DNA of 64,000 nucleotides, from positions 2,976,001-3,040,000 of the forward strand of contig OY101117.1 of NCBI GenBank assembly GCA_956465555.1, written 5' to 3'. The notes under the pieces are model-generated. The model saw only the letters and a list, made by a program, of their open reading frames with translations, was not told the DNA's origin and made no database searches. The translations under genes and the position numbers were made by a program. This DNA is from Nitzschia sp. pyKryTriq1 (taxonomy: Eukaryota; Bacillariophyta; Bacillariophyceae; Bacillariales; Bacillariaceae). Of this stretch, positions 35,322 to 42,152 are shown piece by piece (position 1 is the stretch's first letter; each line of letters opens with the position of its first letter).

Positions 35322-37202
35322 ATGACTTTCAAGAGACCCAGTTGGATTGCAGCATTAGCCTTCGTCGTCGTCTCTTCGGTTCAAGAATCATCACATGCTT
35401 TCACTTGTAAAGTTCCACGAGCGGCGTCATCGTCAACGCATGGTGGCGGTGGCGGCGTGAGCTCTCACCACACATCGCAGAGTTTGGCAACACAACAACC
35501 TATCCTTGTCTCGTCTACCGCTACTCGAGGATCCTATCAGGATGATTATGATGAGGATGACTGGTTGACACCCTTTTCTTCTAGTAGTGATGATCGCGGT
35601 GAGGAGCCTTCGTTCGATGATTCGAGTAGTAGTAGGAGACAGGGAGGAGGAGGAAACTCTAAAGATTTTGCCAACCCCCGCGGTCGGAACCCCAATGACC
35701 CACGGAGAGGCCGGCGATTCAATGACAGGACACCGAAGAATCATAGTAATCATCGGCAACGAGACGGGTTTGTAGAAGCTGCAAACAAGGACCAACAACA
35801 AGTTGATATCACAGACACAAACGCGCATTTCTTCTCTAAAAAGTCACTGGAGGATCCCTCGCTCCAAATGGCAGACAATGCAGTATTTTTGCCCTTGTGT
35901 CGAGGCGCCGGAATTACGCGTCCCTCTCGCATTCAGTCCCTAGCGTGGCCACAAATTCTTTTAGGGAAACCAACACTCGTGGCGGATCAGACTGGAAGTG
36001 GCAAGACCTTGGCGTATCTCTTGCCACTGCTTCAGCGAGCTTTGTCGTCTGCGCCCTCGAAAACTCCCGGTGCTCCCAAAGTCTTGATTTTGGCCCCGAC
36101 TGCGGAACTCGCGGACCAAATTAAAGAAGTCTGTGAGAAGATCTCTAAAACAGTACCCTTTTCCACCATGGTTGTCACTGCCAATGGAAAATTCAAAACA
36201 TCCATTCGAGACCAAATTCGACGTATCCAACGAACGCCCATTGACGTTCTGATTTCGACACCCGGGCGTATCTCGACTATTTTGCGAACTCGAAACTCTG
36301 GATTGGATTTGGGCAGTCAACTTCAAGCTATCGTGTTGGATGAAGTCGATATCTTGTTGATTGATGAAACCTTTGGTCCGCAACTGCGGACCGTGAGCGC
36401 TGCTGTTTCAGACCTCGAAAAGACACAGTTTGTATTTGTCACGGCTACGTTGCCCGATCAGATTGTCCAAACAGTACAAGAAGAGTTTCCGGGAGTCATT
36501 CAAGTCCGAGGACCTGGATTGCATCGAACCGCACCTTCTCTCAAGGAACGACTGGTAGATGTTTCTGTTCCCTCACAATCCAATCGCGACGCCGCCATCT
36601 GCTTTGATGTCAAGGCCAAACAGCTCTTGCAAGCCTTGCGACAAAATAGATGTCGTCGGACTTTGATCTTCTGCAATACGGTGGAATCCTGTCGCGATGT
36701 GGAAAATCTTCTCAAGCGGCGGGACCGAGGTGGCAAAGTGTACGAGGTTGGAGCTTATCACAATGCGATGACTCCCGAAAATCGAAATGCCAATCTCGAC
36801 GTCTTTGCCAAAGGACGACAAGGATCCGAAGAAGTAGTGGACTATGTCTTGATTTGTACCGATCGAGCGGCCCGCGGTGTCGATTTTGATGCGGCGCCAG
36901 TCGATCATGTGATAATATTTGACTTTCCCGCGGATGCGGCTGAATACGTTCGGCGAGTGGGTCGGACAGCACGGGCGGGTCGTCTGGGAACCTGTACTGT
37001 TTTTGTGTATGGGTGGCAACTACCCATTGCACGAGAAGTCATGGGCAAGAAACTTGATAGCTTTACCATTGCGGGCACAGATTTGGGGGAGAAGGAGGAC
37101 AACGAAGATCTCTACTCGTTCCGAAAGAATCGACGAACCAAAAGGAGAAAGGCTGCTATTATCAAGGAAACCATTGAAAGTGGACAACTGTGGGACCAGT
37201 AA
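35322..37202 (+). CDS. plastid-targeted DEAD-box RNA helicase (DEVD variant)
   Basis: Single exon, 626 residues. A signal peptide ends at SSHA/FTCK (plastid motif). A disordered Gly/Asp/Arg-rich region runs to about residue 160. Helicase motifs in order: Q-motif area (ITRPSRIQSLAWP), I ADQTGSGKT (222-229), Ia PTAEL (259), Ib STPGR (312), II DEVD (340-343) in place of DEAD, III TAT in place of SAT, V TDRAARGVDF and VI YVRRVGRTARAG. The DEVD form still has the catalytic Asp-Glu. It is likely an ATP-dependent RNA helicase for plastid rRNA or mRNA maturation, by analogy with plastid DEAD-box proteins of plants. Confidence 0.93.
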   Translation: MTFKRPSWIAALAFVVVSSVQESSHAFTCKVPRAASSSTHGGGGGVSSHHTSQSLATQQPILVSSTATRGSYQDDYDEDDWLTPFSSSSDDRGEEPSFDDSSSSRRQGGGGNSKDFANPRGRNPNDPRRGRRFNDRTPKNHSNHRQRDGFVEAANKDQQQVDITDTNAHFFSKKSLEDPSLQMADNAVFLPLCRGAGITRPSRIQSLAWPQILLGKPTLVADQTGSGKTLAYLLPLLQRALSSAPSKTPGAPKVLILAPTAELADQIKEVCEKISKTVPFSTMVVTANGKFKTSIRDQIRRIQRTPIDVLISTPGRISTILRTRNSGLDLGSQLQAIVLDEVDILLIDETFGPQLRTVSAAVSDLEKTQFVFVTATLPDQIVQTVQEEFPGVIQVRGPGLHRTAPSLKERLVDVSVPSQSNRDAAICFDVKAKQLLQALRQNRCRRTLIFCNTVESCRDVENLLKRRDRGGKVYEVGAYHNAMTPENRNANLDVFAKGRQGSEEVVDYVLICTDRAARGVDFDAAPVDHVIIFDFPADAAEYVRRVGRTARAGRLGTCTVFVYGWQLPIAREVMGKKLDSFTIAGTDLGEKEDNEDLYSFRKNRRTKRRKAAIIKETIESGQLWDQ

Positions 37203-37434
37203 AGCAGTTTGTAGGAGTAATAAAATTGTCTCTCTAGAGAGAGTTTCGCGTACTGTTCGGGCACTGACTGTACCTCGACGCATGGGCGTGTACAATCGTA
37301 TATTCCCCACCTCTGTTCTATACGCGCGGTATCTATGAAGGAATGAACTCTTATAAACTACCGGTAGCGTTCCCGTGTGTACTACTTTGTATGAGTATAC
37401 GCTCGATGAAAAAGTTCAAACTATATTGATTATG

Positions 37435-37487
37435 CAACCATTTTTTCAAGCTTCGATGCTTCTTACATCTAGCTGTCATTCCAGTCG
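37435..37487 (-). promoter_or_regulatory. candidate SECIS element of the TrxR gene
   Basis: Read on the minus strand, 3' of the TrxR stop. The quartet side ATGA lies in GGAATGAC (37480 downward), helix II forms from AGCTAGATGT with GCATCGAAGCT (about 9 bp with one small bulge), the apical loop AAGAA carries the needed AA, and the other quartet side is TTGA. The ATGA-to-AA spacing is about 11 nt, within the usual range. Helix I is short (CGACT with GGTTG, two GU pairs), which is the weak point. It lies about 165 nt past the in-frame UGA. Confidence 0.6.
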
Positions 37488-37646
37488 ATTTCGCCATAGC
37501 TTTCCCGTTTTCTCGCGCCCTTTCTCCCTTCAAACTTCAAAGGAGAGATTGGACGCGCCTACAAATATTCCACATGCAAATAAAAAGTCGTCTCATTGGA
37601 TCGCTCCAACGGGAGCCCTTCAAGAACCAGACGGTTCTCGAAGGGC

Positions 37647-39723
37647 TTAGCCTCAGCAGCCTCCAGCAGCTGTTGGTTAAAAAAAAGTGAGTGAAAGTGA
37701 ACGATAGAACGCAAGTCAACATGACAACAACCACATCATTACTCACCGGCGTCCTCGCCACTGCTCTTGGTAATCGACAGAGTCACAATCTCTTCAGAAG
37801 AAGTTGGATGGATTCCAACCGTATCGGTAAGATCCTTGAACGTCAAGCCCTGCCTCATGGATACACCATATCCTTGCATGACTTCTCCCGCGTTGGGTCC
37901 AACATAGTGAATACCCAAGACGTTCTCCTCCTTGGTTTTGTCTACGACCACCTTGGTAAAGGCGTTCGACTCGTGACGGTTTTGAGACAAGGACCACTCC
38001 AATGGCAAGAATTCACGATGGTACACTTCAATACCATCTGCGCCGAACTTTTCCTTGGCGTCGTCCTCTGACAAACCAACACAAGCGTATTCAATAGGAG
38101 TGAAGACTGTAGTGCAAATGTTAACATAGTCCATGGCTTCCTTGGTCCCTCCAAACAATCGTCGCGCCAAAATGATACCTGCTTGAATGGCGACCGGGGT
38201 CAATTCGGGGCAGCCCTACGTAAATACGGTGCAGAAGGTTGAAGACATAGTTAGTATAAGCACATAACAGTCGGCACTCTGCACAGTCTTTCATCTCTGC
38301 ACGATTGATTCATTCTGAAGATTCGACTTACCTCCATGACATCGCCAATAGCATAAATATTGGGGGTCACCGTCTGTTCAAACTTGGTAGGAATCTTCTT
38401 GTTCTTTGGATTAGTCTTGATATTCACAGAATCCAAACCCAATTTTTCAGTGTCGGCGTATCGACCAATGGCTCCCAAGACGGTGTCATAGGTATCGCTA
38501 CTGCCATCCGAAAAGGTAACCTTGATTTTGTCCCCATCGACCTTTTCCATTTTAGAGGGAGTCACTTCCGTCTTGAACTTGACACCGTGATCTTTCATAT
38601 ATTCTCCAATCTTTTCGGAACACTCACGATCAAAGCCACGCAACAGGATGGACCGGACAGCCACTGTCACATCATTGCCAAAACCCGCCAAAAAGCCAGC
38701 ACACTCCAAACTGATATAAGAGGCACCAACGCAGAGAGTCTTGCCCGGATTCTTTTCCAAGAAAAATACATCATCAGAACTAATAGCCAATTCTCCGCCT
38801 TCACACTCGATGGGCGATGGCCGTCCACCAGTGGCCACCAAAAATCGAGAGCTGGTAATGGTGCTGCTTCGTCCCTTCTTATCGACGACCTCTACGGTAT
38901 GAGCATCCTTGAAGGTTGCCAATTTGTTCAGGTACTGTACGGACTTTTCTCGAAGACGCACTCGATACTTGAAATTCAAACCTCGAATGTAGTTTTGAAT
39001 ATTTCCCTTGACAACATCCCAGTGCACTTGAGTGGTAGGTGTGGCCAACTGACCCATCTCATCGGGCTTGGTACCTTCACCGGCTGCAATACCGTAAAAG
39101 TTGGAGTCTACATTGATCAACTCCCGAAGAGAGGCCCCAATGTGATAAAGTTTCTTGGGGATGCAACCAACGTTGACACAGGTTCCACCCAAGCCCCAGG
39201 TGGTCCCATGAGGACTCGGCTTGACAAAGTCACACAAGGCAACCTTGGCACCCAATTGGGCGGCTTCCTTGGCTGCCGCCATCCCACCGGAACCTCCTCC
39301 AATAACCACAAGGTCATAGTCATAGCTGTGGTCAGCGACATGTCCATCCTCTACCATGACCGCATCGGCCTTATTCCAGGGTCCTGGCTTGGCAGGTTGC
39401 ATGAAATCGCGGCACCAATCCAAAGTCGCATCGTGCCCTCCCAGATACTTTTCAATATCGGCCGGGTCGGGCGCATTACTAGTTCCACCACTGCTGCTGC
39501 TATCGACGGCAGCAGCGTTCTTACCAAACCAAACTACAGGGCAAGCCACGTGTTCCTTTCCGGCCTTGTCGTCAAAGTGATTGCGAAAGCCTCCATCCAC
39601 CAGCCATTCTCGGAACTTGGTGCGATCTCCGAAATCGTGCTCGACCAGCTTGACGCGGTTGGGAAACAGCAAACTCAAGGACGAGACACAAGAAGTAATG
39701 CGCTTGTAAAAGCCGCCTGCCAT
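37647..39723 (-). CDS. selenocysteine thioredoxin reductase (animal type)
   Basis: Three exons on the minus strand: 39723-38332, 38215-37747, 37669-37647; introns 116 and 77 bp; 627 residues. Residues 1-110 resemble a degenerate glutaredoxin fold (HVACPVVWFG, YLGGHDATLDWCRDF). Then FAD site GGGSGG (142), redox pair CVNVGC (182-187) in WGLGGTCVNVGCIPKKL, NADPH part VGASYISLECAGFLAG, VRSILLRGFD, and dimer domain with HPTSSEE. The 23-nt last exon encodes AAGGCUG with in-frame UGA at 37655-37653 read as Sec, then TAA: the GCUG end of mammalian TrxR. Ignoring the last intron gives the false end GEDAGE. It reduces thioredoxin with NADPH, probably in the cytosol. Confidence 0.92.
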
Positions 39724-40712
39724 ACCGGTGCGAACGAACGAAAGACCGAACGAACGGCATACAATGAGTGAGCGGACGAAAACTCGAAAATAAGTACAGT
39801 AATACCGGTGGTATGTACATGGGGGAATTGGGCCTTTTCTTTTTCTCCGACGCCGCATCTCCAACCAACCGTGATACCATGACTCGTACTTACAGGATTG
39901 CATGCCTGCGACATGCAAGATGTGAGGGGACGACATTGTTGAAAAGTAACAATATCCACTATCGTGCAATGCAGTACAGTGCAACAGCCACAACTCCAGC
40001 CACTTCGTATTACAATTTGAGGATGGGGGCGATGTGTGATGATGGGGCGAGATAATAATATTGTGATTTTACTACCGTATGATATGATCGTTGCTCGGCC
40101 GCGTTCCCAGTAATGATGGCCTATTTTCGCGTTGTTGCTGCGTTGGCGTCATTTTCGCCCCCGCTCGCCTTCTTTTCAAGAAGAACGACGACTTCGTTCT
40201 TGCGTCAGAAATAATCGGTACAAAAAGCACGTAAGTTCTACGTGCCTGTACGTACCGTACGAACTGCTGGTACAGTAACCAGTAATGTGCTGGTACCTGG
40301 TACACTTGTACAGTACCAGGTACTGTACTGAATACTGTACGCGGTAGATAGGCCGAGGTTCAATGGGGGAATTTTCGGGGTGAGAAATGAATTTTCGGGG
40401 TTGTTTGACGATGGATCTTGGATCGATCGGATCAAAAGACATCAATGGGAGGCCGCCGGCCGCCGCCACACACCGCACAGTGGAAAGTGGAAGTGGTCCC
40501 TGGTCCCGCAGGCGACAACAAGATGATCTTTTCTTCATTCATTTTCCACCTAAAATCGACTTCCCACTGCCATAGATACTCTTTTGCTGCGTATGAGTAT
40601 CTGGAATGGCAGCTACATAAAAAGAAGCCATGTCAAGATTGATTGAAGGTTGAATTTGTGTTTTGCAGTACTCGTATCTCGTACAGTATACAGTATTGGC
40701 AGTATCATCATC
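39724..40712. other. divergent intergenic region (TrxR / GT49)
   Basis: No supported gene in almost 1 kb. A dense GTAC, GGTACC and CAGTACC block lies at 40236-40345; GTACAGTATACAGTA (40682-40696) is just before the GT49 start. Confidence 0.5.
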
Positions 40713-42152
40713 ATGGTGGCTCCGAAAAGTCAAAGGGCAATAAGGACAAGGAACTCCTCTTGGGTCTTTCGACCGCTACTGATCCTATTGGTGGTCGGAG
40801 GTATGCTTCTCCTTTCCAGTGGAAATCGTCCATCTTCTTTGGAGCCCTTCGACACGAGCTTGTTTGACACAGATGATTCTTCTTCCGATAAGCTGGCGAA
40901 TAGTACTCGTACAAGTGCAGGAGGTACAGGTGCAGGTACAGCTACAGGTACGAGTGATACAACAAAGACTGCTGATGTGTCACCAGCAGCACCACCACCA
41001 CCACCGCCACCAGCAGTCAAGCAGCCCAGAATACAAGTACCGTCCAAAACGGCAAGGCCGAATGTGGTTATTGTCAGAGAAGAGGACTTGCCCCCCCCTG
41101 CGTTCGTTCCGAACCAGACTACTTTTTCGATCGAATACTTTTCTTCCATGTCGCCATGTACGCCCTTGACTCCGAGTGATGTTTCCTTTACCTTGACAAC
41201 TCAGCTCTCTGTGGATCGACTTTGGATCATGAAACATCAGTGTGAACGTTGGCCATCACCACTGCCGATTGCGATTGTTGTCTATCTTCCGCCAAACGCC
41301 CCACCCAACCAAGACTCGAAAATTCTAAATCGGCTCGAACACGAGATGAAGTGCGATTTGACGCGGATGAAAATTACCTTCTTTCAGGCAAGTCCAGACA
41401 GTCCCATTCATCAATATCCCGTCAATACGCTACGAAATCTGGCCTTGGAATCCATCACGACCACCCATGCGGCCTATATTGATTCCGATTTCTTAATTTC
41501 TGATGGCTTGCACGAGGATCTCATCACGACTGCTGCTGTATTGGCCAATGATACACATTCCGCCGTCGTCATGCCTGCCTTTGAGTATATTTCCAATTGC
41601 AAAATTACCCGTCGACAAAATGAAGTTTTGACTTGTTTGCGATCCGAGTGGGACATGATACCGAAGCACCACGAGGATATTGTCGCCTTGAGGGAGAAAA
41701 AGGAACGCCCACTGGTCAAAAATGGTTATCAAAGCAAACGGGGCAAGAACAAGTATCATGGAACTACCATGTACAATGCATGGATTGAGAGTAATCTATC
41801 TACACCCATCCCTATCCCATGTCTCAAACATTGGACCTATGAACCCTATCTGGCCGTACGGGTGTGCCACGATTTGCCGAAATTCCCAGAGATATTTAAA
41901 GGATGGGGATTCAACAAAATTATGTGGGTCAAAATACTGCTAAAAAAGCTGGGCTTTCGTCTTTGGCAAGTCTCACATGGATTTGTCATGCACATTCCTC
42001 ATGAGATTTCCATTTCTCGCCAAAAGGGTATGGACAAGCATCCGCCGGAATTCGACGCGTACATGGACTGGCTTAACACATTGCCGGCACATCCTGATCA
42101 GCTGCCACATTGCAGCGAATGGAAGAAGGAACACGGCCCTCTACAACCATGA
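40713..42152 (+). CDS. GT49 (LARGE/B4GAT1-type) glycosyltransferase
   Basis: Single exon, 479 residues from the ATG at 40713 (the frame opens at a TTG, 40650). Type II topology: basic N-terminus, one membrane segment (RPLLILLVVGGMLLLSSG), then a Pro/Thr-rich stem with PAAPPPPPPPAVK. The catalytic part follows GT49 order: TTQLSVDRLWIMKHQCERW, YPVNTLRNLALESITTTHAA, the DxD site in YIDSDF, VVMPAFEY, WTYEPYLAVR, FKGWGFNK and HGFVMHIPHE. GT49 enzymes in animals add glucuronic acid in matriglycan synthesis; the diatom acceptor is unknown. It probably sits in the Golgi. Confidence 0.9.
   Translation: MVAPKSQRAIRTRNSSWVFRPLLILLVVGGMLLLSSGNRPSSLEPFDTSLFDTDDSSSDKLANSTRTSAGGTGAGTATGTSDTTKTADVSPAAPPPPPPPAVKQPRIQVPSKTARPNVVIVREEDLPPPAFVPNQTTFSIEYFSSMSPCTPLTPSDVSFTLTTQLSVDRLWIMKHQCERWPSPLPIAIVVYLPPNAPPNQDSKILNRLEHEMKCDLTRMKITFFQASPDSPIHQYPVNTLRNLALESITTTHAAYIDSDFLISDGLHEDLITTAAVLANDTHSAVVMPAFEYISNCKITRRQNEVLTCLRSEWDMIPKHHEDIVALREKKERPLVKNGYQSKRGKNKYHGTTMYNAWIESNLSTPIPIPCLKHWTYEPYLAVRVCHDLPKFPEIFKGWGFNKIMWVKILLKKLGFRLWQVSHGFVMHIPHEISISRQKGMDKHPPEFDAYMDWLNTLPAHPDQLPHCSEWKKEHGPLQP

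Follow-up and report, generated by a model that had tools for sequence, protein, structure and literature searches.

A probable selenocysteine-tailed thioredoxin reductase in Nitzschia, with a candidate redefinition hairpin after its UGA codon

Selenocysteine (Sec) forms of thioredoxin reductase are already described from algae. TR is listed among 16 selenoproteins of Thalassiosira (PMC2375036), and a second paper gives algal TXNRD as mainly of the Sec form, with Sec-TXNRD one of the four Sec proteins of widest distribution across 36 algal genomes (PMC7539508). Local structure near a UGA is described from other genes: selenocysteine redefinition elements (SREs) adjoin Sec UGAs in several of these, including SELENON, SELENOT and SPS2, where a stem-loop just past the UGA occurs with a SECIS in the 3' UTR (PMC8704476 and PMC4561486), and stem-loops are reported to follow the UGA in all eukaryotic UGA-containing SPS genes that the latter study examined (PMC4561486). 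Within the literature that we searched, coverage of which was partial, we found no report of an SRE in algae.

Here we describe a thioredoxin reductase (TrxR) gene from the diatom Nitzschia sp. pyKryTriq1, situated in a stretch of 64 kb (hereafter the window, meaning the whole stretch analysed) that is part of a 40.65-Mb genome in 20 contigs. In keeping with a diatom source, a psbA reading frame on contig C20 finds its best PDB matches in the diatom photosystems 6jlu, 6j3y and 8iwh. Given that Sec-TXNRD has already been reported in Thalassiosira and is widespread in algae, the gene is of a known kind, and its likeness to the algal enzymes is that of a TrxR in Sec form (PMC2375036 and PMC7539508). 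Less expected than the Sec-TrxR itself, and the part that we consider worth testing, is a pattern of strong hairpins directly after the UGA in this gene and in some other Sec gene candidates. A gene finder for which UGA always means termination would cut this central redox enzyme short of its catalytic end, and, if the hairpins are SREs, diatoms would allow testing of how local structure and a distant SECIS divide UGA redefinition between them.

Gene model and identity of the enzyme

The gene occupies the minus strand from 39936 to 37647, and a four-exon model yields a product of 639 aa that starts MSSPHILHVAGMQSC (Table 1). The donor of exon 1 is the consensus GTAAGT at 39893, opening an intron of 177 nt that reaches 39717, and exon 2, which has GT-AG borders, carries the Pfam Pyr_redox_2 and TIGR01438 matches. 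The last intron has its donor, GTGAGT, at 37746, spans 77 nt and ends TTTTTTTTAACCAACAG at 37670. Joining 37747 to 37669 produces the C terminus GEDAAAGGC-U-G-stop, the final codons being GCT GCT GGA GGC TGC TGA GGC TAA. For introns of 40-400 nt there are 27 possible AG acceptors, and two of them lead to a GC-UGA-G-stop tail, with the first exon base at 37669 or at 37660; these lie 9 nt apart and leave the frame unchanged.

Table 1 Coordinates of the TrxR gene model and of its candidate RNA elements, in positions of the window
Feature	Position	Strand	Description
Probable exon 1	39894..39936	(-)	43 nt; encodes MSSPHILHVAGMQS and the first base of a Cys codon
Exon 2	39716-38332	(-)	Remaining N-terminal extension, FAD domain with CVNVGC redox motif, NADPH domain
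Exon 3	38215-37747	(-)	Dimerisation domain including GIHPTSSEE; Pyr_redox_dim match and PDB TrxR alignment
Exon 4	37669-37647	(-)	23 nt; AAGGC-U-G-stop; UGA 37655-37653, TAA 37649-37647
Hairpin	37614..37647	(-)	Stem of 15 bp without interruption, including one G-U pair; GUCU loop; candidate Sec redefinition element
Candidate SECIS	37420..37500	(-)	Helix I, core AUGAC (37479-37475) with UGAA, 9-bp helix II, apical AAGAA

The spliced translation matches the family model TIGR01438 at 639.7 bits over profile positions 1-485 of 485 (curated cut-off 475.85), and the unspliced translation scores 626.8 bits and stops at 478 of 485. The best PDB sequence match is the TrxR 1h6v (E 6.5e-152), in an alignment that runs to the final residue with U treated as C; both the CVNVGC motif and the C-terminal Cys-Sec pair are present and aligned with this enzyme. 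The core, residues 146-639, is a large animal-type TrxR. Compared with the animal enzymes 1h6v and 2zz0, likeness extends over residues 138-639 and 144-639, respectively, in each case to the last residue and including the C-terminal pair, whereas the Nitzschia protein differs in bearing an N-terminal extension, some 140 aa long, for which no relative was detected. The protein likewise resembles thioredoxin glutathione reductase (TGR; PDB 2x8c, 3h4k) in its match to the 'TGR' subfamily of TIGR01438 and in possessing an N-terminal extension, but differs from it in that the extension has no glutaredoxin match in Pfam and PDB searches.

Searches with this extension returned no Pfam family at E up to 1, and at E up to 10 a phmmer search of PDB returned two sequences, both at E 0.79 to a nucleoprotein, which we do not regard as meaningful. 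An AlphaFold model of the exon-2 part of the extension alone was poor (pLDDT 47), and none of its 163 Foldseek matches fell at E <= 0.001. Likeness to glutaredoxin was seen by eye only, in a CGFY that arises after splicing of exon 1 and an LGG near the end of the extension, and a glutaredoxin domain in this region is offered as a lead only. Pattern matches to relatives of the enzyme numbered 16 in viral contigs and 17 in prokaryote genome contigs, none of which was confirmed; the 45 phage records with a match all fell below 60% identity, and those annotated among the matches listed are glutathione or other disulfide reductases.

A second copy of the gene is present on contig C1, with an identical tail. 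The copies differ at 8 of 1920 CDS sites, five of them synonymous, and the three nonsynonymous differences (residues 81, 91 and 134) all fall outside the core. Exon 1 is identical save for one synonymous change, and no difference was found over 36100-38014, a stretch that takes in exon 4 together with the hairpin and the SECIS. Contigs C1 and C3 hold these nearly identical TrxR counterparts and also two MsrA pairs and two thioredoxin pairs of similar score, with positions relative to the contig ends that are likewise similar, so that C1 and C3 seem to have a long arm in common. For two GPx matches that lie further inward on C3, no counterpart appears among the C1 matches listed. The neighbours of the gene in the window are a DEAD-box helicase (35325-37202, plus strand), which converges on its 3' end, and, on the other side, a Glyco_transf_49 protein (40668-42152, plus strand).

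Much of the sequence-only reading from which this work set out is borne out. The 23-nt last exon, its 77-nt GT-AG intron and the in-frame UGA were all found in the sequence, the unspliced frame ends GEDAGE as had been stated, and the GCUG tail that it proposed fits the TrxR/TGR family model to the final position. Its description of the protein as mammalian in type holds insofar as WGLGGTCVNVGCIPKKL is found and the enzyme is of the large TrxR class, 'animal-type' being the name of an enzyme class only. The start that it gave, at 39723, is the one element that we would replace.

Two alternatives to this gene model have to be weighed, one at either end. If translation began at 39723 with MAGGFYK and without an upstream exon, as originally read, the in-frame ATG at 39723-39721 would serve as the start codon; however, this ATG directly precedes GCAG, the last four bases of the probable first intron and its acceptor, and an ATG exon upstream with a consensus donor defines that intron of 177 nt. 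We therefore consider the shorter start unlikely, and exon 1 probably supplies the N terminus, on the evidence of splice consensus only. At the other end, the last intron might be retained, in which case the enzyme would end GEDAGE without a C-terminal redox pair and the GCUG reading would be a coincidence. The unspliced frame is indeed open and ends shortly past the donor, yet the match of the tail to the family model, the SECIS-like element, the Sec machinery and the other Sec genes described below all speak against retention, which we hold to be very improbable. With splicing and Sec decoding both inferred from the sequence, we are highly confident that the gene encodes a genuine selenoprotein thioredoxin reductase with a Sec tail.

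Selenocysteine machinery and the SECIS candidate

Three tRNA-Sec genes score above the Rfam cut-off and are also found by ARAGORN, with anticodon TCA, and at one locus (C4:2830576-2830822) two tRNA-Sec genes stand in tandem, their starts 161 bp apart. SepSecS was found in the genome, as was SPS2, the latter with a UGA in LKG-U-ACK. Candidates for further Sec genes were drawn from seven Pfam searches only (PF00255, PF10262, PF08806, PF01625, PF13911, PF00586 and PF00085), and the UGA was placed by what we take to be the Sec position of each family. A UGA occupies this position in three GPx genes, SelT, two SelU genes, a SelM-like gene, the MsrA genes L032 and L050 and two PDI-like genes, which together with TrxR and SPS2 gives 13 UGA-Sec candidates. 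The MsrA-like L032 (C1:1879555-1879929) has an extra in-frame TAG in addition to its UGA at the Sec position, and may be decayed. In the PDI-like L049 (C2:990900-992700), the UGA of W-U-GHC would stand one base after an intron acceptor, and the gene counts as Sec only if the intron with that acceptor is spliced. An Rdx gene (L019) was rejected as a Sec gene: it has three TGA codons, its active site reads CTGC, and the TGA codons were read as intron.

The sequence-only reading had named the lack of a SECIS in the 3' UTR as grounds for abandoning its proposal; a SECIS-like element is found there, some 168 nt past the start of the 3' UTR, with a core common to other UGA-Sec candidates. An unconstrained fold of 37420-37500 contains both helices, an open core and the AAGAA loop at -15.4 kcal/mol. 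In shorter pieces of 59-72 nt the core is unchanged at -11.9, which misses the limit of -12.6, and the energy of the whole element is inside the limit only when the longer helix I is included. The distances (NTGA-AA 11 and AA-GA 15, by hand count) and the upper stem at -8.1 all fall within the limits for distance and energy that are given in PMC2375036. Two generic scans converge on this one candidate in the TrxR 3' UTR. The first was not distinctive, its score of -8.7 falling above the 10% and below the 25% quantile for kb-strands of the window; under a stricter scan that requires AA, scores of -8 or lower occur in 3% of 128 kb-strands, and of four control Sec genes only the GPx gene L016 returned an element, which was weak.

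On both strands of the 64-kb window GAAUGAC occurs at 16 sites, two of which have a closed helix, and the single one at -6.9 or below is that of TrxR. GAAUGAC with such a closed helix was found in 8 of the 12 other UGA-Sec candidates, a count in which the stop position of L032 is uncertain because of its extra in-frame TAG and possible decay; the remaining four have a closed helix with GAAUGAA (L016, L050), GAAUGAU (L022) or UUAUGAC (L048). None of 12 comparison 'CYS' loci, which include two duplicate pairs (L025/L026 and L030/L031), has GAAUGAC within 600 nt past the stop. At the rate seen in the window, its presence in 6 of the 8 Sec genes of the first set has a probability of 3.5e-6, for a descriptor that was noticed while TrxR and the controls were being viewed together. 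A looser form, GAAUGA combined with a helix of -6.9 or lower, fits 5 of the window's 83 GAAUGA sites and 2 of the 12 comparison loci, L025 and L026, which are copies of one gene with GAAUGAA inside a short repeat. As the looser form is thus also found in comparison loci and in the window, only GAAUGAC discriminates, and L016, L022 and L050 rest on the looser form.

When 36900-37700 was searched against Rfam (E up to 10), three matches came up (E 0.33-9.6), none of them a SECIS, and the SECIS_1 model found no match over the entire genome. Since this genome's Sec genes for GPx and SelT likewise go unmatched, the Rfam model seems insensitive here and we do not take its silence as absence. The GAAUGAC core provides a local rule for locating SECIS elements in this genome.

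Both the decoding factors and the route of the electrons are established in these families, and the gene can be placed within them as follows. Splicing of the last intron would add Gly-Cys-Sec-Gly through the 23-nt exon, and the 3' UTR SECIS would recruit SBP2/eEFSec and Sec-tRNA, such that the UGA is decoded. Electrons would then pass from NADPH through FAD to the CVNVGC disulfide, and onward to the Cys-Sec pair at the C terminus of the partner subunit, by which thioredoxin would be reduced.

Structure directly after the UGA

The hairpin begins 5 nt past the Sec UGA, with the last A of the TrxR stop codon as its first base, and lies nearly entirely in the 3' UTR. The stretch 37592-37660 folds at z -6.04, with none of 200 shuffles equally stable; the hairpin is the most stable of 6394 stretches of 60 nt in the window (20-nt steps), where no other stem with a loop of 3-10 nt is as long. 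We read it as a probable SRE. It is like the elements of SELENON, SELENOT and SPS2 (PMC8704476 and PMC4561486) in being a stem-loop just past a UGA with a SECIS in the 3' UTR, and unlike them in that it starts on the stop codon, has a stem of 15 bp without interruption and belongs to a diatom gene. In this position it would probably slow the ribosome and so favour Sec insertion over termination.

The same property was examined across the Sec genes by folding the 50 nt that follow the UGA directly (offset +3) and asking for z <= -3, an offset and threshold set after TrxR had been seen. Four of 12 genes reach this value: TrxR (z -5.86), the SelU gene L034 (-5.38), the PDI-like L048 (-4.06) and the GPx gene L016 (-3.65), with main stems starting 5, 5, 6 and 8 nt after the UGA, respectively. 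When 31 offsets between -157 and +143 were compared, genes at z <= -3 were most numerous, and the mean z was lowest, at +3; the SelU gene L035 also passes, at offset +13. The MsrA gene L050 was added last, with offset and threshold already fixed, and gave z -3.63 with structure from 2 nt after the UGA, as well as GAAUGAA with a helix at -25.9 past the stop. In total, 5 of 13 Sec candidates have z <= -3 directly after the UGA, as against 68 of 5116 stretches in the window and 33 of 2571 coding stretches, a background of about 1.3% for which fewer shuffles (40 and 60) were used than for the Sec genes. The binomial probability of 5 in 13 is 4e-7, or 1.3e-5 when 31 offsets are allowed for, and that of 4 in 12 without TrxR is 1.2e-5. 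Cys homologues at z <= -3 numbered none of six, these being what remained of 11 loci after five without a motif match (L024, L025, L026, L030 and L031) gave no value; in L030 and L031 the catalytic residue was not seen in the stretch read.

It is nonetheless a serious possibility, one that we rate somewhat below even, that the TrxR hairpin is a structure for 3'-end processing or mRNA stability, or has arisen by chance, and is not a recoding element. Such a reading accords with its beginning on the stop codon and its location almost wholly in the 3' UTR, and with the fact that 8 of the 13 Sec genes have no strong structure directly after the UGA (e.g. SPS2, z -0.55, and L049, z +1.43). The SPS2 of this genome is in this respect unlike the UGA-containing SPS genes of PMC4561486, in being without strong post-UGA structure. 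Processing, stability or chance is harder to reconcile with the other four hairpins (L016, L034, L048 and L050), which are situated inside coding sequence right after the UGA, with a signal that peaks at +3 among the 31 offsets, and with its absence from all six Cys homologues. On balance we lean modestly towards recoding by two signals, in which a subset of Sec mRNAs would combine strong hairpins about 2-8 nt after the UGA with a 3' UTR SECIS, tuned gene by gene; our leaning was strengthened because L050, fetched later, passed the fixed test.

In TrxR the UGA is the penultimate codon, and the hairpin rises from the stop codon itself. The hairpin is identical in both copies of the gene, and a repeated element was rejected as its identity, the sole other genomic match among the matches listed being that in the second TrxR copy.
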